DNA of 58,911 bases from Thermoplasmatota archaeon (GTDB lineage: Archaea > Thermoplasmatota > Thermoplasmata > Thermoplasmatales > Thermoplasmataceae): contig JAMDBT010000046.1 of NCBI GenBank assembly GCA_023487205.1, forward strand, positions 1-58,911, written 5' to 3'. The position numbers and the translations under genes are program-made. This document shows, in pieces, positions 19,895 through 31,172 of this stretch (position 1 is the stretch's first letter; each line of letters opens with the position of its first letter). The notes beneath the pieces were generated by a model. The model searched no databases, was not told where the DNA came from, and saw nothing but the letters and a program-made list of their open reading frames with translations.

Positions 19895-21628
19895 TCAAGT
19901 ATTTCTTTTCGTGTTAAGCAGGTCTGAAAGACTCTTCACGAATTCCATACAGTCCCCGACATATCCGTAATCTGAATACTTGAAAATTGGGGCATTAGGG
20001 TCCTTGTTCACCGAGAAAATCTTCTTTGCATACCTGAACCCAACCACATGATTGTCGTGACCTGAGATACCGAGAGCAAGGTAAAGTGAGGGCGAAATGG
20101 AAATTCCGGTCAGACCTATCTGAACCTGTCTGGGAACAAAGCCAAGATCCACGAGAGGCCTTGTGGCCCCAAGAGCAGCCCCTATATTGTCTGCCACCGA
20201 TCTTATTGGTTCAACGTTTGCCCTGTCGCCGATCCCCTTTCCTATTCCCACGATTATACTTGCATTCCTTAGGGGCCTGAAGCTTTCAGGCACTCCAATG
20301 AACCTGGTTATTTTCTCGGTGTGCGATCTGGAACATTTAAAATCTCCAATCCTAAAGGGGGTGTTCGTCCTGCAAACCTTGAACATTCCGGGCCTGACAG
20401 TTGCCATGGCCGGTTTCGTCTTCGATGTTATGTTTGCGACTACTCCTCCACCGAAGGCAGGCTTCATCTGAACCAGAATGCCGTTGACAAGCGCAAGGTC
20501 GACACAGTCAGCCGTGAGCCCGAGCTTTCCCATTGCTGCCACCATTGCGGAGACCTCCCTTCCTTCAACGGTGGAAGGGAAGACCACGAATTCGGGCTGT
20601 TTCTCCTCTATGTACCGGAAAATGTCCGCGGCCATGCACCTGGTGCTTCCGCAATCCAGCCTGTGGTACACGTGGCACTGAGCCCCTCTTATCAAATCAG
20701 GCGGGACGTTGCCGATCAACTCTATGTTGAATTCACCCCTCGAAAGATCAAAGATCTTTGACGATATTTCAATGGCCAACGACGGGTCGTCAATGCACAC
20801 ACCCAGCACGACCTTGTGGGAAGCGTCATATGAGGACATTTCCCTGTAAACTACCGGATCTTCGTTTTCCGATTCAGATGCCAGTGAAACTAAAGTTTCC
20901 AGCGCGCTTTCGAGTTTTTCGAAAAGATGGACATTTCTTCCGCTCTCCAGCCTGGCCGTGCCAGAAACCACCGTGGGAGAATCTTTCTGCCCAGAAATCG
21001 TAAGTCCCAGATCGGCGGAGGTCCAGTTCTCGATCCGGTCCGTCATGTCCGGAACCCCAGGTTTCAGAGGCCTTGCTCTGTTTATCTTCTCGCTCACGGA
21101 AACCAAAGCCTTCAAGGGAAGCTCGATTTCCTGGAGACCGTCTTCCCTCTCGTGCTCTATGAGGATTGTCTTCTGGTCGGCACTGAAATCGATTCTTGAA
21201 ACGGAAGACTTGAAATTGTATCCAGCGAAATAAGCAACTTCGGGCGGAACCTGTGAGGTTTCGCCGTCAAGTGAGTACTTGCCCGCAAGAACCAGGTCAG
21301 GAGCCAGTTTCTTCACGGCTTCCGCAAGAATTACGCTCGTAACAAGAGTGTCCGCTCCCGCGAAGGCCCTGTCGGAAATAAGGATTCCCCGGTCGGCACC
21401 CATCCTGAGGGAAAGGTTCAGTACCTCGGACGCAAATGGCGGTCCCATGGTTACGACTGATACAGTTCCTCCAAGCTTTTCCTTAATCTTAATTGCCTCG
21501 TCTACCGCTTTCCTGTCGAATGAATTCATCTGAAGCGGAACGTTATCCCTGATTATCCGTCCAGTTGAAGGATCGAACTGTATCTTGTTGATGTCCGGGA
21601 TCTGCTTCACCAGGACTGTGGTGTGCAT
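19895..21628 (-). CDS. Fused electron transfer flavoprotein, EtfB-EtfA single chain
   Basis: 577 residues joining a full EtfB (about 1-255: VLVKQIPD, VSVVTMGPP, the FAGADTLVTSVILAEAV loop) to a full EtfA (about 265-577, with a shortened N-terminal part, then VFPSTVEGREVSAMVA, the TVRPGMF segment, GIGKGIG and the FAD-binding LGATRPLVDLGFV...QIGLTG...LALGISG region). Etf proteins carry FAD and pass electrons between dehydrogenases and quinone or bifurcating partners. ATG 21628 overlaps the Rieske stop as TGATG, so the two are co-translated. Separate EtfA and EtfB genes lie just upstream, so this genome segment holds two distinct Etfs. Confidence 0.93.
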   Translation of the reverse strand: MHTTVLVKQIPDINKIQFDPSTGRIIRDNVPLQMNSFDRKAVDEAIKIKEKLGGTVSVVTMGPPFASEVLNLSLRMGADRGILISDRAFAGADTLVTSVILAEAVKKLAPDLVLAGKYSLDGETSQVPPEVAYFAGYNFKSSVSRIDFSADQKTILIEHEREDGLQEIELPLKALVSVSEKINRARPLKPGVPDMTDRIENWTSADLGLTISGQKDSPTVVSGTARLESGRNVHLFEKLESALETLVSLASESENEDPVVYREMSSYDASHKVVLGVCIDDPSLAIEISSKIFDLSRGEFNIELIGNVPPDLIRGAQCHVYHRLDCGSTRCMAADIFRYIEEKQPEFVVFPSTVEGREVSAMVAAMGKLGLTADCVDLALVNGILVQMKPAFGGGVVANITSKTKPAMATVRPGMFKVCRTNTPFRIGDFKCSRSHTEKITRFIGVPESFRPLRNASIIVGIGKGIGDRANVEPIRSVADNIGAALGATRPLVDLGFVPRQVQIGLTGISISPSLYLALGISGHDNHVVGFRYAKKIFSVNKDPNAPIFKYSDYGYVGDCMEFVKSLSDLLNTKRNT

Positions 21629-21945
21629 CAGACTTCGACCAGTACTGCGCCGCCTTCCACCTTTACGGGGTAGGACCTGAGTGGGGATATGTCACCTGCA
21701 CCCTCTGGTGGATTGAGCACGCTTCCATCCTTGGGATCGAACGTGGCAAAGTGGTTTGGACATATCAGGGTACCGCTGTCAATGAACGCTTCGGAGAGGT
21801 CATACTGCTCGTGTGTACACAGATGAGAAGTGGCGTAATACTTCCCGGAAACGTTCATCAGGATGAATTCTGTCTCGCCAGCCTTGCCCTTGAAAATATC
21901 TCCGTCCTTGAGCTTTCCCTCGTCTACTACCCTGTACCAGGCCAT
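21628..21945 (-). CDS. Rieske-type [2Fe-2S] ferredoxin
   Basis: A 105-residue soluble Rieske protein. The cluster ligands are Cys43 and His45 in HLCTHEQ and Cys62 and His65 in ICPNHFATFD, with 16 residues between, as in bacterial dioxygenase-type Rieske ferredoxins. No membrane anchor. The CATTTAAATG box 25 bases upstream of ATG 21945 suggests a leaderless start; a GGAGGT is also present but sits rather far. Translationally coupled to the EtfBA fusion, which is an unusual pair and suggests that it donates to or accepts from that flavoprotein (inference). Confidence 0.93.
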   Translation of the reverse strand: MAWYRVVDEGKLKDGDIFKGKAGETEFILMNVSGKYYATSHLCTHEQYDLSEAFIDSGTLICPNHFATFDPKDGSVLNPPEGAGDISPLRSYPVKVEGGAVLVEV

Positions 21946-22080: not shown

Positions 22081-22866
22081 TCACTGCTGAGCTTTCAGGA
22101 TCTCGGCAATTCTCGCTGCCTTTTCCTCGTCGGTCCCTTCCACAAACTCCCTCTTCCTTTCCGGTGTGGGAAACTCAGTCAGTCGCAAGACGCTTGTATA
22201 GGAGCCCTTCAACCCTATCTCCTCAGGATTCAGGCCAAGGTCAGAAGCATTCCATACGGTCAGCTTGAACTCGGTTTCTGCCCATCTCTTGCGCCTGAAG
22301 TCGGGAAACCTGGGCTGGTTCACTCCCAGTTCAACGCTGACCAGCGCAGGCAGGGAACCCTCGGCAACTTCGTGACCGCCCCTGACGGACCTTGTTGCCG
22401 TGATCTTTCCCTCTCCCAAGTCTGCCTTTGACACGTATAATATCTGGGGAAGATCCAGTAATTCAGCCACCTGCGACGGGACCTGCCCGGTGCCCCCGTC
22501 CGAGGATTCCTCGCCCAGCACCACAAGGTCATAGTCTCCAATCTTCCTGATTCCCGCTGCCAGGACCATGGAGGTTGCAAAGCTGTCTCCGCCAGCAAAC
22601 TCCCTCGCAGACAGGAGAACTGCGTCATCCGCTCCCATTGCAATTCCCAGCTTGAGAAGCGGTTCGAAGAGCATAGGTCCCATTGAGAGGAGAGTCACTT
22701 TCCCCCCATAGCGTTCCCGAACCTTCACTGCAAACTCTATTGCGTTCTTGTCAGCCTCGTTAAGCTGGTTCTCGGCCCCTTCCCTCTTCAGGGTCATGGT
22801 CTCCTGGTCAAATGTCAGGTCTTCCGACTTCGGAACGACCTTTGTACAGACTATGATTCCTCTCAT
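22081..22866 (-). CDS. etfB: Electron transfer flavoprotein subunit beta
   Basis: 261 residues, normal for EtfB. Seen: VCTKVVPKSEDL at the N-terminus, GGKVTLLSMGPM, the FAGGDSFATSMVLAAGI loop and the DGGTGQVPSQVAELL nucleotide-binding segment followed by a typical C-terminal arm that wraps EtfA. Whether the nucleotide is AMP or a second FAD (bifurcating type) cannot be decided by eye. ATG 22866 overlaps the EtfA stop as ATGA. Last gene of the kor-hdr-etf operon. Confidence 0.95.
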   Translation of the reverse strand: MRGIIVCTKVVPKSEDLTFDQETMTLKREGAENQLNEADKNAIEFAVKVRERYGGKVTLLSMGPMLFEPLLKLGIAMGADDAVLLSAREFAGGDSFATSMVLAAGIRKIGDYDLVVLGEESSDGGTGQVPSQVAELLDLPQILYVSKADLGEGKITATRSVRGGHEVAEGSLPALVSVELGVNQPRFPDFRRKRWAETEFKLTVWNASDLGLNPEEIGLKGSYTSVLRLTEFPTPERKREFVEGTDEEKAARIAEILKAQQ

Positions 22867-23831
22867 TTGCTGCCCCCCTGGTTGAGAAGCTGGAGGATCT
22901 TGGATGCATCAGCCACGACACAATAATCGGAGTAATCGAAGATCTTGGCATTCTTGTCGGTGTTCACGGATATTACGGTCTTGCACCCCGCAATTCCAGT
23001 GACAAAATGCTCTGCGCCGCTCACTCCAATGACCACGGCAACCTTTGCCTTCAGCGAGTATCCAGTGGATCCGATCTGGGAATCCCTGGGTGCCAAGCCC
23101 TTGTCCGCAATTGGTCGTGACACTCCGACTTCGGCACCAGCTTTCCGGGCAAATTCCTTCACCATTGGAAATGAGTTCTCCACGCCAATGCCGCCTATAA
23201 CTACCGTTCCAGCCTTGCCTATGTCCGAGGTCTTCCGAACGTCACGGGAAACTGTCCTGACCCGGTCAAGAGAATCCGGGATATCAGAATCCACGATCTC
23301 AATTTTTCCATTCGTCCCGGGAAACTCCTGCTTGGAGAACACTCCCGGCCGGACGGTTGACATCTGGGGCTTGTTCTTTATGCACGCGACCTGCGCCACA
23401 ACCTTGCTTCCATACCCCGGTACCCCGGAAACAAGCGATCCCTGGGTATCGATGTCCAGTGAAACTGCATTCGCAGTGAGACCTGTGCGCAGCCTTGCCG
23501 CAATCCTTGCAGCAAGTTCCCTGCCCTGGTAGGTGGCTCCAACCAGCATAATATCGGGTTTCCGCGAACCAATCTGGTCACTTATGGCCCTGGTGTAAAG
23601 ATCGGTTGAATAGGAGGCCAGATTCCTGCCGCGGATCATTATGACGTTTTCCGCTCCGTGCTCCACGGCCTGGTCCGGAAGCTTGGCGGGATCGTGTCCT
23701 GCAATTATGGCAACGGTAGTGTAATGGACCTTTTCTCCCATCTCTCTCGCCCGGGCGAGAATTTCCAGTGAGACCTCCTCAATTTCTTCCCCGTCATGTT
23801 CCAGGTAAACCCATATTTCCCTCTCTTTCAG
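22863..23831 (-). CDS. etfA: Electron transfer flavoprotein subunit alpha, CTG start
   Basis: FAD-bearing Etf subunit, 322 residues from 23831. The C-terminal FAD domain shows VIGGIGVEN, EVGVSRPIADKGLAPRDSQIG and KVAVVIGVSGAEHFVTGI. The first ATG is at 23741, but the 30 codons before it are plainly EtfA sequence (REIWVYLEHDGEEIEEVSLE). No ATG, GTG or TTG exists between the upstream in-frame stop (23862-23864) and 23741. CTG at 23831 overlaps the preceding stop as CTGA, exactly like the ATGA and TTGA junctions around it, and GAGAGGTG sits seven bases upstream. CTG is therefore the likely start. Confidence 0.92.
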   Translation of the reverse strand: MKEREIWVYLEHDGEEIEEVSLEILARAREMGEKVHYTTVAIIAGHDPAKLPDQAVEHGAENVIMIRGRNLASYSTDLYTRAISDQIGSRKPDIMLVGATYQGRELAARIAARLRTGLTANAVSLDIDTQGSLVSGVPGYGSKVVAQVACIKNKPQMSTVRPGVFSKQEFPGTNGKIEIVDSDIPDSLDRVRTVSRDVRKTSDIGKAGTVVIGGIGVENSFPMVKEFARKAGAEVGVSRPIADKGLAPRDSQIGSTGYSLKAKVAVVIGVSGAEHFVTGIAGCKTVISVNTDKNAKIFDYSDYCVVADASKILQLLNQGGSK

Positions 23832-24958
23832 GCTAACGCACCTCTCAGCACTTCGGCAAGATCATGAACCCCGATGCCCATTTTCCGAGTATCTGAACTG
23901 TCCCGGAGATTCATCACGCAGTACGGGCATGCCGTGACCACATTTTTCGCTCCGGCTGCGGCAGATTCATCCATTCTCCTGTCCGCAAGTCTTGCACCTT
24001 CAAAATCCAAAAACATCCTGTTTCCTCCTCCGCCACAGCAGAGGCTCTCCCTGCCTGTGTGTTCCATTTCAATCAACGGAGATCGAGTCACCACGGAAAG
24101 CATCTCCCTTGGTCCTGAGACGAAGTCGTCATACCTGCTCAGCACACATGGGTCGTGGTACGCCGTTTCGGAGATTGAATCCGAACGAAGCTTCAGCTTG
24201 CCGTCCCTGAAAAGATCGTAGAAGAACTCTGAATAGTGCATTACCCGCGCCTTGAGCCCGTGCTTTGAATAGTAATTACGGAACGTGTTGGAGCAATGCG
24301 GGGACGCAGTAACAACGATTTCTGCTCCCGTTTTCTGGAACGCCGCAATATTCTGGGAAGCAATCTCTTCCATGTATCCCAGCTCTCCCGCATTCAAAAC
24401 GGGCTCACCGCAGCAACGTTCATCGTTTCCAAGGATTCCGAAGTCAACACCAAGCCTCGACATGATTTCCGTAATGCTCCTCAGGGACTCATGAGCTTCC
24501 CTGCTGTAGGCGCTCTCGCATCCCACGAAGAAAAGGACCTTGACACCCGCGCGGGCATCCTTTATCCCGAGGCCGTCTGCCCACAGGGATCGTTCGCCCT
24601 TCTTGCCGCCCCATGGGTTGCCGTTCTCGTAAATGTCCCAGACAACCTTCTCTATCTTCTCCGGAGCCTTTTTCTCCTCGAACGCAAGAGATCTCAGACC
24701 GAGGACCACGTCGACTATCCCGACTTCGCGTGGACATGTTGTCTCGCAGAGTTTGCAGGTAGCGCAGTTCCACAACTCTCCGTTGAAGTCCAGGCCCAGT
24801 TGCGCGGATCTCACAATCTTTCTCATGTTGAGGCCGGAATCTGAAATGGCATTGATGGGACAATGTGCGGAACATGAACCACACTGGAAACATACGCTGG
24901 CTTCTCCGCCCGTCATGGAATTCACCCTGTCCCACCTCTCGTCGTTTAACAGCAGCAT
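23828..24958 (-). CDS. HdrC-HdrB-like fused iron-sulfur/CCG-domain protein
   Basis: 376 residues. The N-terminal part is HdrC-like with two [4Fe-4S] motifs: Cys23, 26, 29 and 33, and Cys65, 68, 71 and 75. The rest is HdrB-like with two CCG domains, with CC pairs at 182-183 (ERCCGEP) and 307-308 (LCCGGGGN) and additional Cys at 222, 271, 344 and 347. Methanogen HdrB binds non-cubane clusters through such CCG motifs and reduces a heterodisulfide; this fusion is of the HdrD/GlpC type but without membrane spans. It lies one base after the HdrA-like gene and overlaps etfA. The physiological substrate is unknown: a disulfide, or simply electron relay to Etf. Confidence 0.9.
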   Translation of the reverse strand: MLLLNDERWDRVNSMTGGEASVCFQCGSCSAHCPINAISDSGLNMRKIVRSAQLGLDFNGELWNCATCKLCETTCPREVGIVDVVLGLRSLAFEEKKAPEKIEKVVWDIYENGNPWGGKKGERSLWADGLGIKDARAGVKVLFFVGCESAYSREAHESLRSITEIMSRLGVDFGILGNDERCCGEPVLNAGELGYMEEIASQNIAAFQKTGAEIVVTASPHCSNTFRNYYSKHGLKARVMHYSEFFYDLFRDGKLKLRSDSISETAYHDPCVLSRYDDFVSGPREMLSVVTRSPLIEMEHTGRESLCCGGGGNRMFLDFEGARLADRRMDESAAAGAKNVVTACPYCVMNLRDSSDTRKMGIGVHDLAEVLRGALA

Positions 24959-24959
24959 T

Positions 24960-27900
24960 TCAAGCCCTCCTCAGGAAAGCTTCCCTGCCCTTTGCTATCT
25001 CTTCTTCCGGCAGAGTCCTGATGAATTTATCCATCTCCCTCATTTTCTGTGCGAACCTGTTGCCTTCCGCAGCGCTTACCCAGTGGAGCTGCAGCCTGTC
25101 AGGATTAACGCCCCTTCCCTCTAGCATCTTTCTCCACCTCTCGATTCTCTTCTCCGTATCCTCGTTGGCACTGATGTAGTGGCAGTCGTTGATGTGGCAG
25201 CCGGTGATAAGGACAGCTCCCGCTCCGCGTTCCAGGGCTCTCCACACGAGCTTCTGCGAGACCCTGCTGGAGCACATTGTTCTGATCACTCTGGAGCTCG
25301 GCGGATACTGGATTTTCGATATTCCGGCCTGATCCGCTCCTGCATATGAGCACCAGTTGCATGCGAAGGTGACGACCTTTTCCTGCGGATCCTCCTCGGT
25401 CGCTGCATCTATCTGCGCAATCAGTTGATCGTCAGTGAATCCAGGCATGCTCATGGCACCCACGAAACAGGATGATACACAGTTCCCGCAGCCCATGCAT
25501 ACAGCAGCGTTGAGTTCGATCCATTTTCCCCGTTCTCCCTTGATTGCACCGTAGGGGCAGGCGGGTTCACATTGCATGCACTTTGTGCACTTCTTGGCAT
25601 CAATGGTCGCAATTATCGGTTCTTTCTTCATCCTGTCCTTGAGCAGAATTCCAGATGCCTTGGAAGCAGCTGCGAGCCCCTGAACTGAACTCTCCCTGAA
25701 ATCCTTTGGTCCCTGCACAGTCCCGGCTAGAAAGACTCCGGGTACCGCCGCCTCCACAGGTCCAAGCTTGGGATGCAGTTCCAGGAGGAAGCCCTCTTCA
25801 TCTCTGGAGAGCTTCAATTGCGAAAATACCGGATCATCAACCGGGACCATTCCGACGTTAAGGACCACAAGATCGGATTTGAGCCCGATGGTTTCTCCCG
25901 AAAGGTCATCCCTTACCGTGAGGACTCCCTCCTGCAATTCAACAGACTCTCCGTTCTCGTTACTATCGTACTTGAAGAACTGGACCCCGGACTTCGATGC
26001 CTTATAGTAGAGGTCCTCAGCGTACCTGGAATATGCGCGGATGTCCCTGTACAGTACCCTGACTCTTTTCCCCTTTTCCCTCAGCCTGAGCGCCTGGCCA
26101 AGCATGGTTGAGCAGCAGAACCGGGAGCATCCCCTGCCTTTTTCCCTGGACCCAACGCAGGAAATAATTGAAACTGAACCGGCATCCAGGCTGTCCATCC
26201 TCTTCTCCAGTTCGAGGGAAGTGATTACTCTTGGATCGTTTCCGTACCCGAATTCCTTCGGCGAATACGGATTGGCCCCTGTCGCTAGCACAACTGCTCC
26301 CAGGTCCATTGTGCTGCCGTCCGAGAGCGATGCCTGATAATTTCCCACAAAACCAGAAATGACCATGACCCGTGTTGACAGATGTGCTACCGCTCCCGAG
26401 GAATTGAACTCAGATACCTTCCTATTGAGAACTTCCCTTGATCTGATGCCAGCGGGAGCAAGCTCTTCCAGGGAATTCAGCATCCCTCCGAGGGATGGGG
26501 AAGATTCCACCAGGTGGGTTTCGATTCCCATCCTTGCCAGCGCGGTTGCCGCAGATAATCCGGCAACTCCTCCTCCCAGGACCAGGGCTCTCCTTGTTAC
26601 GGGGAATTCCTTTTCCGTTAGAGGGGCCAGTGCCCTTGCCTTTGCGACGGCCATTCCCACCATGTCCACCGCCTTACGGGTCGCTGCCTCCTTCTCTCCC
26701 CTGTGCACCCACGAATCCATGTTCCTGACGTTTGCCATTTCGAACAGGAATGGGTTTAGCCCCGCCCTTGCACACGCCCTCTGGAAAGTGCTGCCATGCG
26801 TCTTGGGGGAGCATGCACTCACCACAACGCGATTGAGTTTCTTCTCCCCAATCCTGCGGACAATTTGATCCTGAGTGCTTCCGGAACAGGAAAACTTGTT
26901 TTCCTCAACGTATGCTACACCAGGGATTCCCGTTGCCCGGTTCATGACCTCCTTTACGTTGACCACGCCTGCTATGTTGGATCCGCAGTCGCAGAGGAAC
27001 ACCCCAACCCTGGGATCGCCTGAAGTGTCAAGGGGCTCTGGAACCTCTTCCTTGATCCACTCCCTTTCTGCCACGAATTCCATTGCAGAGGCAGCAGCCG
27101 CAGAGGCTTCGGTCACGCTATCCGGAATGTCCTTTGGCCCGGAGGCGCAGCCCGCAACCAGGATGCCCCGCCTGGTTGTCTCCACAGGATTTGCTTCGTC
27201 TGTTCTGAAAAATCCGTCCTCTCCCAGTTCAATTCCCAGTATTCGCGACAGTTCGGGGGTGCCCCTTCCCGGGATGGTCGCAGTGGCGAGCACGACCATG
27301 TCGTAATCCTCCTGAATCAGTTTGCCGTCGCTGGTGGAGTCATACCTTACAGTGATCAGGTCTTTATTCCTGCGAATATCCGCCGGCCTTCCCCTGACAA
27401 ACCTTACCCCCTGGTCCAGGGTTCTCTGGTAGAAGGCGTCGAATCCTTTTCCATACGCCCTGACATCGATGTAAAGGGCAGTAGCTTTCTTGACACCGTG
27501 TTCCGATGCCTGCATTGCCTCCTTCACCGAATACATGCAACAGATCCTTGAGCAGTATTCCACAATCCTCCTGTCCCTGGATCCTGAGCAGAGGACGAAG
27601 AGCACGCTCTCCGGCATCTTCATGTTGCTCGGTTTCAGGATGTCCCCTTCAGTGGGACCCGCAGAGCTCAGAAGCCGCTCGAACTCGTAGGAAGTCAGTA
27701 CGTCGGGATCGGTCCCGTATCCGAAGTCTTTCAGCAGTTCCGGGTTCAGGAGATCGAATCCGGTGGCAACGATGATCGCACTTGCATGGATCAGGTGATC
27801 TTCGGTGATCATGCTATAGTCTATGGCCTTGGGCTGGCAGACGTCATAGCACCTCTGGCACGGATAATAGTTTGGAGGTTCGTTAAGACAGGTCTCAATA

Positions 27901-28358
27901 TCCAGCACGTATTTTCCTGGCTCTGCCTGGGAGAATGGCGTGTAGATCGCCTTTCTTGCTCCCATCCCTGAATCGAATTCGTTTCTGGTCAGTTGCGGAC
28001 AGGCCTCCACGCAGAGATCGCATCTGGTGCATTCGTCAGTGACGAATCTCGGGCTTTCCCGCACTGTGACGAGAAAATCTCCTGCCTGGCCGTCCACCTT
28101 TACGACTTCAGAGAGGGTCAACACGGTCACGTTCCGGTTGCGCATAACGTCACTGATCTTCGGCGATTCTATGCATATGGAGCAATCCAGAGTTGGGAAA
28201 TTCTTGTCGAGTCCGGCCATCTTGCCTCCCAGCGCTGGGCTCTTCTCCACGAGGACAACCTTTGCGCCGGACTCCGCTAAGTCAAGGGATGCCTGTATAC
28301 CGGCGATTCCCCCTCCTATCACAAGAACCGGTTTACTCAAATTTTCCACCTGCGTCAT
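24960..28358 (-). CDS. Tandem HdrA fusion with C-terminal MvhD domain (QmoA-QmoB-like)
   Basis: 1132 residues. First HdrA unit: FAD fold starting VLVIGGGIAGIQASL, an inserted ferredoxin-like segment (CTRCDLCVEACP near residue 110, then CQRCYDVC). Second unit: the HdrA N-terminal domain near 450 (VGVFLCDCGSNIAGVV...VVVSACSPKTHGSTF), a second FAD fold near 590 (ALVLGGGVAGLSAATAL), and two [4Fe-4S] motifs near 923 (CTKCMQCEPACP, CMGCGNCVSSC). From about 994 an MvhD domain: FACNWCSYAGAD, MCSSRV, TGCHINDCHY. Unit one lacks the N-terminal domain and unit two lacks the inserted ferredoxin, which matches QmoA and QmoB respectively. Predicted soluble flavin-based electron hub. The start may be ATG 28358 or TTG 28340, within the korC end. 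Confidence 0.93.
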   Translation of the reverse strand: MTQVENLSKPVLVIGGGIAGIQASLDLAESGAKVVLVEKSPALGGKMAGLDKNFPTLDCSICIESPKISDVMRNRNVTVLTLSEVVKVDGQAGDFLVTVRESPRFVTDECTRCDLCVEACPQLTRNEFDSGMGARKAIYTPFSQAEPGKYVLDIETCLNEPPNYYPCQRCYDVCQPKAIDYSMITEDHLIHASAIIVATGFDLLNPELLKDFGYGTDPDVLTSYEFERLLSSAGPTEGDILKPSNMKMPESVLFVLCSGSRDRRIVEYCSRICCMYSVKEAMQASEHGVKKATALYIDVRAYGKGFDAFYQRTLDQGVRFVRGRPADIRRNKDLITVRYDSTSDGKLIQEDYDMVVLATATIPGRGTPELSRILGIELGEDGFFRTDEANPVETTRRGILVAGCASGPKDIPDSVTEASAAAASAMEFVAEREWIKEEVPEPLDTSGDPRVGVFLCDCGSNIAGVVNVKEVMNRATGIPGVAYVEENKFSCSGSTQDQIVRRIGEKKLNRVVVSACSPKTHGSTFQRACARAGLNPFLFEMANVRNMDSWVHRGEKEAATRKAVDMVGMAVAKARALAPLTEKEFPVTRRALVLGGGVAGLSAATALARMGIETHLVESSPSLGGMLNSLEELAPAGIRSREVLNRKVSEFNSSGAVAHLSTRVMVISGFVGNYQASLSDGSTMDLGAVVLATGANPYSPKEFGYGNDPRVITSLELEKRMDSLDAGSVSIISCVGSREKGRGCSRFCCSTMLGQALRLREKGKRVRVLYRDIRAYSRYAEDLYYKASKSGVQFFKYDSNENGESVELQEGVLTVRDDLSGETIGLKSDLVVLNVGMVPVDDPVFSQLKLSRDEEGFLLELHPKLGPVEAAVPGVFLAGTVQGPKDFRESSVQGLAAASKASGILLKDRMKKEPIIATIDAKKCTKCMQCEPACPYGAIKGERGKWIELNAAVCMGCGNCVSSCFVGAMSMPGFTDDQLIAQIDAATEEDPQEKVVTFACNWCSYAGADQAGISKIQYPPSSRVIRTMCSSRVSQKLVWRALERGAGAVLITGCHINDCHYISANEDTEKRIERWRKMLEGRGVNPDRLQLHWVSAAEGNRFAQKMREMDKFIRTLPEEEIAKGREAFLRRA

Positions 28359-28893
28359 AGCCCTTCTCGAATGCTTTCACGTTTTCTTCCGCGCGTTTGG
28401 GAAAACGCTTCTTAATGGACTCCATGCACGACTTTTTAGTGGGAATGCCTGAAATCCGGGACAGGAAACCGAACATCGCAACGTTTCCTGAATTGGGAGT
28501 GCCGAGGCTTACTGCAATCTTTCTTGCGGAAACGCCCATTATAATTGCATGGGACATTTCTCCAGACTTTCCATTGCCGGGTGCGTCCGAGGAATCCACG
28601 AGTTCACTGTCCACCAGTACTGCAGATCCCTTGCGCATCCTCGCAATGTTGGAGTCAAAGCCTTCCTGGTTCAGGGCGAGAAGGTAATCTGGATTCCTGA
28701 CCAGGGGATAATCGATCTCTTCGTCCGAAATGACAAGATCGGCACTGGACCAGCCGCCGGTGATCTGGGGGCTGTATTCCTCCGTCATTGCCACCTCACA
28801 TCCGTCCAGGAGGGCTGCGGAACCGATAAGGTGACCCAGAGTGATAACCCCCTGCCCACCGGACCCATAAATCCTAAACTCCTTTCGCTTCAT
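28333..28893 (-). CDS. korC: 2-oxoacid:ferredoxin oxidoreductase gamma subunit
   Basis: 186 residues. The YGSGGQGVITLGHLIGSAAL N-terminus, EYSPQITGGWSSADLVIS and DYLLALNQEGFD are typical of the gamma domain, which helps close the CoA-binding active site. It overlaps korB by four bases (ATGA) and hdrA by up to 26 bases. The full four-subunit set (alpha, beta, gamma, delta) lies in order D-A-B-C, the arrangement of 2-oxoglutarate oxidoreductases. Confidence 0.93.
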   Translation of the reverse strand: MKRKEFRIYGSGGQGVITLGHLIGSAALLDGCEVAMTEEYSPQITGGWSSADLVISDEEIDYPLVRNPDYLLALNQEGFDSNIARMRKGSAVLVDSELVDSSDAPGNGKSGEMSHAIIMGVSARKIAVSLGTPNSGNVAMFGFLSRISGIPTKKSCMESIKKRFPKRAEENVKAFEKGYDAGGKFE

Positions 28894-29729
28894 CTGTCCA
28901 CCCTCACCCTTTCGATTATTTCCCGTTCGATGTCGTGAAAGGTTGGCCTGGTCTTATGGTAGAAATCTCCCAGGATGATTGGCCTGTCTCCGGAGAAAGT
29001 TACGCCCGCATTATGCAGGTCTGCATTGTTATCGATCTCACAATGTTCCCGGAAGTACTGCATCTGCGCATATGCGTCTGCAAATCCATTGTCCTTGCCA
29101 AAATTCGGAGGACAGACCGAGAGCACCTCGATAAAGGAGAAACCCCTTACGGTGAAGGACTTTGCAATGGATCTGGTGAGCTGCCTCACATGAAGTGCGG
29201 TCCACCTTGAAACGTAAGAAGCGCCCATGGCCTTCATCATGTATGGCAGGTTGAAGCTCTGTTCCAGGTTCCCGTACGGCGAGGATGCTGTCACCGATCC
29301 TGCAGGCGTGGTGGACCCGTGCTGGCCGCCGGTCATGCCGTAGTTGAAATTGTTCACGCATATGACGTTGAGATCGATGTTCCTCCTTGCTGCATGCATA
29401 ATGTGATTTCCCCCGATATTGAACAGGTCCCCGTCACCGCTGATGAGAGAAATGTGAAGCTTTGGATTGGCTATCTTCATCCCGGTTGCAAAGGCGATGC
29501 TCCTTCCATGTGTTGTGTGGTAACTGTCTGCGTTGGCATATCCCGGGAGCCGTGCAGTGCAGCCTATCCCCGAAATAAGCACAACTTCTTCCCGGGGAAT
29601 CCCGGAAAGCGCAAGCGCATTCAGGTAGGCATTCAGCACTATGCCGATGCCGCATCCCGGGCACCATATGTGCGGAAGCCTTTCAGACCGCAGGAATGCG
29701 TCCTTTGGATGTCCCTTCCCCTGGATCAT
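28890..29729 (-). CDS. korB: 2-oxoacid:ferredoxin oxidoreductase beta subunit (TPP binding)
   Basis: 279 residues. Thiamine diphosphate site: ISGDGDLFNIGGNH and NNFNYGMTGGQHG, with the N-terminal IWCPGCGIGIVL segment carrying cluster-ligand Cys, followed by ISGIGCTARL. The subunit decarboxylates the 2-oxoacid and passes electrons through its [4Fe-4S] cluster to ferredoxin. Overlaps korA and korC by four bases each. The thiamine transporter elsewhere in the window would supply its cofactor. Confidence 0.95.
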   Translation of the reverse strand: MIQGKGHPKDAFLRSERLPHIWCPGCGIGIVLNAYLNALALSGIPREEVVLISGIGCTARLPGYANADSYHTTHGRSIAFATGMKIANPKLHISLISGDGDLFNIGGNHIMHAARRNIDLNVICVNNFNYGMTGGQHGSTTPAGSVTASSPYGNLEQSFNLPYMMKAMGASYVSRWTALHVRQLTRSIAKSFTVRGFSFIEVLSVCPPNFGKDNGFADAYAQMQYFREHCEIDNNADLHNAGVTFSGDRPIILGDFYHKTRPTFHDIEREIIERVRVDR

Positions 29730-30901
29730 TTTCCCTTTTCCCTCCTGTGTTTCTCCTGCTTTGCTGGTTTAGAGATTGACTTCAGGACAGTATCTGGATC
29801 GGGTACAGCACCGGGAGGGAAATGCATCTCTTCCACCGGGGCATCGGAATTTTCTCGCACTGAGTGAGAGTACTGCCCGTAGTTTATTTCCGTCACAATA
29901 ATCCTCTGCACCCTCTTGCTCAGTTTCCTGATTTCCCTGTCCGGAAACGGCCAGATCGTGATTGGCCTGAAAAGTCCGATTTTCAATCCCTTGTTCCTGC
30001 CTTCCCTCACGACCCTTTCCATTACCCTTGAGGTGACGCCGTATGCCACCAACAGGGTTTCTGCATCATCCGTCTCGTACTTCTCGAACTCAACTATGCT
30101 GTCCCTGTGATCCCTGATTTTCCCCAGGAGGTGATTCATCATCTTCGCCTCAACAGCGGAACTGTTGGAAGGATAACCCATCTCGTCGTGGGTCAGGCTC
30201 TCAAAATTCCCCCTAATCCCTGTACCGGCAAGAAACATTGGGGAAAAGTCGGTGGAGAAGTCCACCAGCTTGTCATCTGCCTTGCGGCTTGAAATCGTCA
30301 GGCGGGGGACTATCTCATATTCCCACGGCTGTTTCACCACAATTTTCTCGCTCATGTGCCCGATCACCTGGTCAGGCAGCATAATGACGGGCTGTCGGTA
30401 TTTTTCTGCGGAATTGAACGCGGTGATCGTGAGATCAAACATCTCCTGCACGCTATTCGGACAGTACGAGATGGACTCGACGTCTCCGTGAGTACCCCAG
30501 TGGGCCTGCATGATGTCACCCTGTCCCACTCGTGTCGGGATTCCTGTAGATGGTCCGCTGCGCATCTCATTTACCACTACACAGGGAGTTTCCGTGATCA
30601 TCCCAAGTCCTATGTTCTCCTGCATAAGCGAGAACCCCGGACCGGAAGTGGCAGTCATAGACTTGAGGCCGGCATTGGCAGCACCCAGTATAGCGGCCAT
30701 GCTTCCTATTTCGTCCTCCATTTCCACGAAATGCCCTCCCACCATGGGAAGCCTGGAACTTAGCCGCTCAAGAATCTCTGAAGACGGAGTGATAGGATAT
30801 CCAGCATAGAAGCGGCATCCCGCTATGAGGGCTGCCTCTGCGCAGGCAAAATTTCCGCTGATAAAATGCTTTCCTGGATCAATGAGCCCTTTCACGATCA
30901 T
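29726..30901 (-). CDS. korA: 2-oxoacid:ferredoxin oxidoreductase alpha subunit
   Basis: 391 residues. FISGNFACAEAALIAGCRFYAGYPITPSSE is not quoted in full by motif here; its key pieces are GNFACAEAA and YPITPSSEI. EMEDEIGSM, TSGPGFSLMQENIG and the substrate-loop GPSTGIPTRVGQGD point to the 2-oxoglutarate (KorA) rather than the pyruvate branch. The C-terminal transketolase-like domain begins near LVAYGVTSRV. Product of the reaction is succinyl-CoA plus reduced ferredoxin, replacing 2-oxoglutarate dehydrogenase in an oxidative citric acid cycle (inference from family). Confidence 0.94.
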   Translation of the reverse strand: MIVKGLIDPGKHFISGNFACAEAALIAGCRFYAGYPITPSSEILERLSSRLPMVGGHFVEMEDEIGSMAAILGAANAGLKSMTATSGPGFSLMQENIGLGMITETPCVVVNEMRSGPSTGIPTRVGQGDIMQAHWGTHGDVESISYCPNSVQEMFDLTITAFNSAEKYRQPVIMLPDQVIGHMSEKIVVKQPWEYEIVPRLTISSRKADDKLVDFSTDFSPMFLAGTGIRGNFESLTHDEMGYPSNSSAVEAKMMNHLLGKIRDHRDSIVEFEKYETDDAETLLVAYGVTSRVMERVVREGRNKGLKIGLFRPITIWPFPDREIRKLSKRVQRIIVTEINYGQYSHSVRENSDAPVEEMHFPPGAVPDPDTVLKSISKPAKQEKHRREKGK

Positions 30902-31172
30902 TGGCCTCCTCTATGTATATGGCGAATTCCGGGCACACAGTTTCACACATCCCGCAAGCAATGCAAGAATCTTCCATTCCTTCTTTCACCGCCGGGGGAT
31001 GATACCCCATGGCGTTTATTGCGCTGGATTCCTCAAGCATGTCTTTCGGGCAGAAGTGCCAGCAGTAAGTGCAGGCTTTGCATCTTTCCGGGATAAAGTG
31101 CACTGTTCCCTTCGGAATCACGAAATGCTTTCGGTTGACCGGATTCCTCGTGATCTGATCCTGATACATCAT
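30879..31172 (-). CDS. korD: 2-oxoacid:ferredoxin oxidoreductase delta subunit, 2x[4Fe-4S] ferredoxin
   Basis: About 97 residues. Two cluster motifs, CKACTYCWHFCP and CIACGMCETVCP, follow the N-terminal NRKHFVIPKGTVHFI stretch, which is typical of KorD/OorD. The frame is open to 31328; the start is put at ATG 31172 (with a second ATG at 31169), because the TATA-like AAAATATATT at 31213-31222 would give a transcript start near 31194. ATG 31205 is the alternative, adding 11 residues. First gene of the eight-gene operon. Confidence 0.9.
   Translation of the reverse strand: MMYQDQITRNPVNRKHFVIPKGTVHFIPERCKACTYCWHFCPKDMLEESSAINAMGYHPPAVKEGMEDSCIACGMCETVCPEFAIYIEEANDRERAH

Follow-up and report, generated by a model that had tools for sequence, protein, structure and literature searches.

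Gene clusters joining 2-oxoacid oxidoreductase (Kor) and heterodisulfide reductase-like (Hdr) genes, and clusters joining Hdr and electron-transfer flavoprotein (Etf) genes, are each known separately. No report of Kor, Hdr and Etf in one cluster was found in the open-licence literature searched. Here, we describe an eight-gene kor-hdr-etf operon of this kind on a contig of 58,911 nucleotides (JAMDBT010000046.1), referred to as the window, from a Thermoplasmatota archaeon.

Kor and Hdr genes are likewise interspersed in the korABCD-flxABCD-hdrABC cluster of tubeworm symbionts, for which direct electron transfer between Kor and Hdr has been proposed (PMC6315080); however, that cluster is bacterial, is linked to the reverse tricarboxylic acid cycle, and encodes the NADH-linked Flx where the operon has Etf. 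Hdr-like genes and etfAB occur together in type II sHdr clusters (PMC11582611), as they do in the operon. The core genes of those clusters, shdrC1B1A-Hyp-B3, were not found in the operon, which has a single HdrCB, no separate C1, B1 or Hyp, and, unlike them, Kor. Another known Hdr-Etf cluster is hdrF3-etfBA of Desulfobacterium (PMC2702500). With the methanogen HdrABC-MvhAGD and FdhAB systems, the operon shares the HdrA and MvhD domains and the HdrC cubanes; in contrast to these, its HdrB site appears non-catalytic by sequence, its HdrA is a tandem protein, and neither a hydrogenase or formate dehydrogenase gene in the unit nor MCR was found.

Layout and conservation of the operon

A first-pass annotation of the window, made without database searches, had placed an eight-gene operon at positions 22081-31172. 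All eight open reading frames were found on the minus strand and are listed below in the order of transcription.

30879..31172, minus strand: KorD-like ferredoxin subunit with two 4Fe-4S motifs (Pfam Fer4; best NCBIfam match OorD/OGOR_delta, below cut-off)
29726..30901, minus strand: KorA, 2-oxoacid:acceptor oxidoreductase alpha subunit (POR_N, PFOR_II; NF006412, 491 bits, cut-off 411)
28890..29729, minus strand: KorB, thiamine pyrophosphate (TPP)-binding beta subunit (TPP_enzyme_C; best NCBIfam match 2-oxoglutarate:ferredoxin oxidoreductase beta, below cut-off)
28333..28893, minus strand: KorC, gamma subunit (POR domain)
24960..28358, minus strand: type II (tandem) HdrA fused to MvhD (HdrA2, 1152 bits; FlpD; PDB alignments to HdrA and MvhD)
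23828..24958, minus strand: HdrCB-like soluble Fe-S protein, a putative EtfD-like relay, with two cubane motifs and two CCG domains
22863..23831, minus strand: EtfA, with Val137 at the site of the Arg facing N5 of b-FAD and Phe276 at the a-FAD His site
22081..22866, minus strand: EtfB, with the RxFxG NAD motif kept and a degenerate b-FAD motif (DGGTGQVPS)

From KorD to EtfB, consecutive genes overlap by 23, 4, 4 and 26 nt, are separated by 1 nt, and again overlap by 4 and 4 nt. The 4-nt overlap of HdrCB and EtfA presupposes a CTG start of EtfA at 23831, and on that condition the annotated genes do overlap or lie one base apart throughout. This in-frame CTG shares 4 nt with the HdrCB stop (C-TGA) and restores the sequence REIWVYLEH..., whose alignment with relatives begins at the first residues. 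The first ATG, at 23741, would leave a gap of 86 nt after HdrCB and delete the N-terminal beta-strand. As EtfA also starts at -4 or -1 in 11 of 15 relatives (ten with ATG, and L031 with TTG), CTG at 23831 is the likely start. The start of KorD is consistent with those in relatives.

Relatives, represented by metagenome-assembled genomes (MAGs) with contig ends, were searched with HdrCB. Among 101 genomes, true orthologues (50-60% identity) were set apart from paralogues of about 670 aa (30-38%). The complete set, in one order and on one strand, was present in 12 of the 13 loci fetched, the remaining one (L041) ending inside HdrA at a contig end. Class and phylum searches recovered more distant copies; the complete ordered set was seen in five of them (L082, L089, L090, L092 and L093), and L081 and L091 run into contig ends. 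Overall, the eight-gene order was found in the window and in 17 other Thermoplasmatota genomes, with three more copies cut by contig ends. It is carried by seven families: f1, f3 and f4 from the same order, f15 and f25 from the same class, and f36 and f38 from elsewhere in the phylum, outside that class. Most operon proteins share 33-69% identity across these genomes, and the closest named relative with the operon is a Thermoplasmata MAG. Because the flanking genes differ between genomes, the unit can be taken as these eight genes. When GTDB contigs were scanned with a single HdrCB sequence, only four close relatives, all Thermoplasmata, were returned; since the scan reaches close relatives only, this is no evidence of absence outside the phylum.

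The arrangement is not a product of chance, its order being identical in 17 other genomes. The first-pass annotation had proposed gene order in relatives as a check on its view of the locus as one functional unit, and this view is borne out by the conserved order, the overlapping junctions and the correlated protein distances (Mantel; r 0.90-0.97 for all 28 pairs of the eight proteins). These correlations indicate joint inheritance, not contact, as a Mantel test does not separate interaction from shared descent. Operon conservation alone likewise does not prove contact, and Kor, Hdr and Etf could share regulation only, being transcribed together without forming a complex. We regard this as improbable, given the tight junctions kept over deep divergences and the class-specific Etf residues described below. 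In the concatenated tree, the window grouped with its congener and then, with modest support, with f4, while the distant families formed a separate clade; this tree neither demands nor excludes transfer.

Predicted electron path and residue signatures

From gene content, order, conservation and residue signatures, we infer, tentatively and with a little less than even confidence, one soluble complex or tightly coupled pathway, and with it the wiring, the direction of flow, the Etf partner and the Kor substrate. It would oxidise a 2-oxoacid and lead from Kor, at low potential, through HdrA and HdrCB to a non-bifurcating EtfAB at high potential. Electrons from the 2-oxoacid would leave Kor via KorD and enter the tandem HdrA-MvhD, whose flavins and Fe-S clusters would pass them on to HdrCB, into its HdrC-type cubanes and its noncubane cluster with the His ligand. 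The latter protein would act as both wire and Etf dock and reduce EtfAB, which would pass the electrons on to the respiratory chain. Bifurcation or confurcation, if any, would occur at the FAD of HdrA domain 1. Reoxidation of ferredoxin through Etf by such a unit is possible.

Kor yields low-potential electrons, and Kor-type enzymes are reversible. The window encodes the four-subunit Oor/Kor-type makeup, with a POR alpha, a TPP beta, a gamma and a 2[4Fe-4S] delta subunit. The NCBIfam models specific for 2-oxoglutarate matched below their cut-offs, and only the general alpha model scored above.

EtfD wires Etf to menaquinone; EtfD-type clusters exchange electrons with Etf, and clusters of the HdrC/HdrB type form a wire to HdrA. 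By sequence, the best solved relative of HdrCB was the EtfD of Mycobacterium smegmatis, an Etf:menaquinone oxidoreductase (PMC13083937, PDB 9ojn), with an E value of 1e-43 (4e-15 for HdrC and 1e-4 for HdrB). It was also the best fold match (Foldseek; E 9e-24, template-modelling score 0.76, compared with about 0.5 for HdrB). HdrCB is homologous to the soluble part of EtfD, but has no membrane part and is coupled to HdrA and Kor; no hydrophobic or transmembrane segment was found in it, and the haem b-containing transmembrane part of EtfD is missing. The noncubane D2 cluster of EtfD has an extra His ligand that completes it and renders it non-catalytic (PMC13083937). The equivalent of this residue (His583) is H221, within an SPH motif, and was present in all 21 HdrCB orthologues; together with C271, C307, C308, C344 and C347, it forms a D2 site that is invariant where readable. 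The ligands of the linear D1 cluster of EtfD (C503, C538, C581, C584; T539) differ, with Ser for C581 and Cys for T539. In CCG1, all 21 sequences have Ser for the first Cys of the CxxC motif, and more Cys are lost in L089, L090 and L092, the last having lost most of those in CCG1. Two noncubane clusters, each with a full Cys set, as in HdrB, were not found in HdrCB.

Because the EtfD-type His ligand is present and the first cluster site is incomplete, HdrCB is expected to conduct electrons instead of splitting disulfides. Rather than a disulfide reductase, it is probably an Fe-S wire to Etf without catalytic function. The Hdr-like chemistry put forward in the first-pass annotation does not hold as worded, since disulfide reduction at HdrB is unlikely with these CCG domains. 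A role in sulfur or disulfide chemistry, like that of HdrABC or sHdr, with Kor merely co-transcribed, would fit the homology of HdrA and the occurrence of etfAB in type II sHdr clusters; we consider it highly improbable, as the CCG sites are unsuited, the unit lacks the sHdr core genes, and no MCR is present.

A relative of HdrCB (37% identity; L094) has EtfAB and two acyl-CoA dehydrogenases encoded next to it, a neighbourhood consistent with Etf as the partner. Other HdrCB-like proteins near Etf genes (L095, L096 and L098) have Asp for the CCG1 Cys, giving a DPH motif, and the EtfA of L095 and L096 carries Ser at the N5-Arg site. In three f27 loci (L083, L084 and L085), a protein resembling the HdrCB orthologues (38-40% identity) lies near separate HdrA, MvhD and HdrB-like genes; no Kor alpha/beta or Etf was found there. 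The paralogues of about 670 aa, present in most relatives, were considered as fused oxidases. This assignment was rejected: hydrophobic segments occur at the N-terminus of the copy in the window's own genome, and the group shows the cluster motifs of EtfD, D1 ligands included, so that these proteins are classed, by their motifs, as EtfD-like.

The tandem HdrA-MvhD protein comprises, from the N- to the C-terminus, FAD domain 1 with an inserted ferredoxin (aa ~1-432), an HdrA N-domain (~447-580), FAD domain 2 without the insert (~590-910), two 4Fe-4S clusters (~917-970) and MvhD (995-1116). Its AlphaFold model (mean pLDDT 76, pTM 0.81) matches HdrA structures. The two TrxR-like FAD domains in one protein and the C-terminal MvhD are shared with type II HdrA (PMC12054007) and with the HdrA-HdrA-MvhD fusions known in other archaea (PMC11237513), from which the operon protein differs by its link to Kor and Etf and by the loss of Lys409 from domain 2 in all copies. 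In Methanothermococcus thermolithotrophicus HdrA, Lys409 touches N5 of the bifurcating FAD, and Lys409 and Glu356 have been proposed as marks of bifurcating HdrA. The Lys409 equivalent was found in domain 1 of all 19 readable copies, where Glu356 is also kept (CCMYSVK; ExER). In domain 2 it was absent from 21 out of 21 copies, replaced by Gly, Asn, Gln, His or Ser, with the neighbouring Cys cluster present. The MvhD domain is intact, with its Cys motifs, in all copies.

The domain 1 flavin may thus carry out bifurcation or confurcation, a three-way coupling in which electrons from Kor and, via HdrCB, from Etf would together reduce a mid-potential acceptor at MvhD (NAD, F420 or some protein), or the reverse. 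Besides the kept Lys and Glu, the intact MvhD speaks for it, this domain being the attachment site of hydrogenase or formate dehydrogenase in HdrABC complexes. However, the mid-potential partner that would have to dock at MvhD is not encoded in the eight-gene unit, nor is a gene for such a module conserved beside it. We consider three-way coupling unlikely, although a serious contender, and rank linear oxidative flow somewhat above it.

The closest solved relatives of the operon EtfAB are the bifurcating Etfs (CarDE, LctBC, Bcd-Etf). In Ldh-Etf, DGDTAQVGP binds b-FAD and RxFxG binds NAD; Arg205 of EtfA lies at N5 of b-FAD, and its replacement by Ala abolishes bifurcation, while NADH:2,6-dichlorophenolindophenol activity remains (PMC9232219). 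This Arg has been reported as conserved in both bifurcating and non-bifurcating Etfs (PMC6405883). In the operon EtfA, the site was occupied by Val in 21 out of 21 sequences, compared with Arg in all 12 FixABCX-type paralogues of related genomes, which served as a within-lineage control. The b-FAD motif is DGGTGQVPS or a variant of it, with D124 lost and G129 replaced by Pro, whereas RxFxG is kept in all 21 EtfB. Phe276 at the a-FAD His site has a parallel in LctC, which also has Phe there. With the N5 Arg replaced by Val and the b-FAD motif degenerate, in contrast to the Arg of the paralogues, the operon EtfAB is expected to be non-bifurcating. Since domain 1 of HdrA keeps Lys and Glu, domain 2 never has the Lys, and EtfA has Val for Arg, the site expected for any bifurcation is HdrA domain 1 and not Etf.

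The invariant RxFxG, which is needed for NAD in Ldh-Etf, and the activity left in the R205A variant would also suit an Etf that serves as an NAD(H) module between HdrCB and NAD, the complex taking over the function of the 2-oxoglutarate dehydrogenase complex. This is quite unlikely, as the degenerate b-FAD motif means that the second FAD may not bind.

Downstream of EtfB, after a gap of 135 nt, the window encodes a Rieske ferredoxin (21628-21945, minus strand) overlapping a fused EtfB-EtfA gene (19895-21628, minus strand), whose product has Lys at the b-FAD N5-Arg site. The two genes are also adjacent in L131, L132, L134 and L135; a Rieske gene is nearby in L133 and missing in L136. They were considered as part of the operon and dropped on account of the gap and of their occurrence away from it in G002 and others; they are a separate conserved pair.

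Host context and weight against the proposed path

The host genome (1.56 Mb, 60 contigs, 97% complete) encodes a haem-copper oxidase (COX1), an available redox sink. The first-pass annotation had described an aerobic non-methanogen. The latter part was confirmed, MCR alpha being absent from all 24 genomes tested, with control methanogens positive. The former fits the oxidase of the host but not the unit as such: because several carriers (f4, f25, G306) have no detectable COX1, the operon is not restricted to aerobes.

Several observations weigh against linear flow from Kor through Hdr to Etf and the respiratory chain. Apart from the carriers without COX1, the Lys and Glu kept in HdrA domain 1 suggest bifurcation over simple linear flow, and the RxFxG kept in EtfB means that Etf may serve NAD(H). 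Genomes of f22 combine KorDABC, HdrA and MvhD with an HdrCB that has the SPH motif, and they lack Etf, so Etf is not the only context of HdrCB. Finally, the host already has two other Etf-quinone routes (EtfAB with an EtfD-like protein, and FixABCX), and the need for a third is unclear. As the host has these Etf systems, the fused EtfBA and also other 2-oxoacid oxidoreductases, the operon would be a specialised extra system.

The f22 loci (L086, L087 and L088) hold the array KorDABC-HdrA-MvhD-HdrCB2-HdrA/MvhD-HdrCB; the L086 array has a gene for the RuBisCO large chain a few kb away. The first of the other Etf loci (L127:4235-7936, G000 contig C59) has EtfB-EtfA next to an EtfD-like protein of 682 aa that contains hydrophobic segments, with acyl-CoA dehydrogenases and a thiolase nearby, and is a probable archaeal EtfD system. 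The second (L128:3280-6818, G000 contig C31) is a cluster of FixC, a FixX-like protein, EtfB and an EtfA with the N5 Arg, and may be a bifurcating FixABCX.

The absence of COX1 from some carriers, the reversibility of Kor-type enzymes and the precedent of the tubeworm symbiont cluster (PMC6315080) would also agree with flow in the reductive direction, in which reduced carriers drive the carboxylation of succinyl-CoA by Kor, as proposed for those symbionts. Against this, Etf is normally a high-potential carrier, and no Flx or ATP-citrate lyase was found beside the operon genes (the rest of the reductive cycle was not examined). We consider this direction very unlikely.

Returning to the oxidative path, the operon could point to a hitherto undescribed class of HdrA complexes spread through the Thermoplasmatota. 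In it, a bifurcating HdrA flavin would have a 2-oxoacid oxidoreductase as its low-potential partner and, reached via an EtfD-like soluble wire, a non-bifurcating Etf as its high-potential partner; we regard this generalisation as possible but doubtful. It would add Etf as a new partner of HdrA. The natural Etf that has lost an Arg regarded as general among Etfs, and the tandem HdrA with one putatively bifurcation-competent flavin, are useful comparisons for the requirements of bifurcation. How non-methanogenic archaea reoxidise the low-potential electrons of 2-oxoacids is often unknown, and this phylum-wide, self-contained unit would offer a defined, testable answer. If the proposal is true, flavin-based bifurcation or confurcation would provide a direct link between 2-oxoacid metabolism and the Etf pool in organisms that lack methanogenesis.

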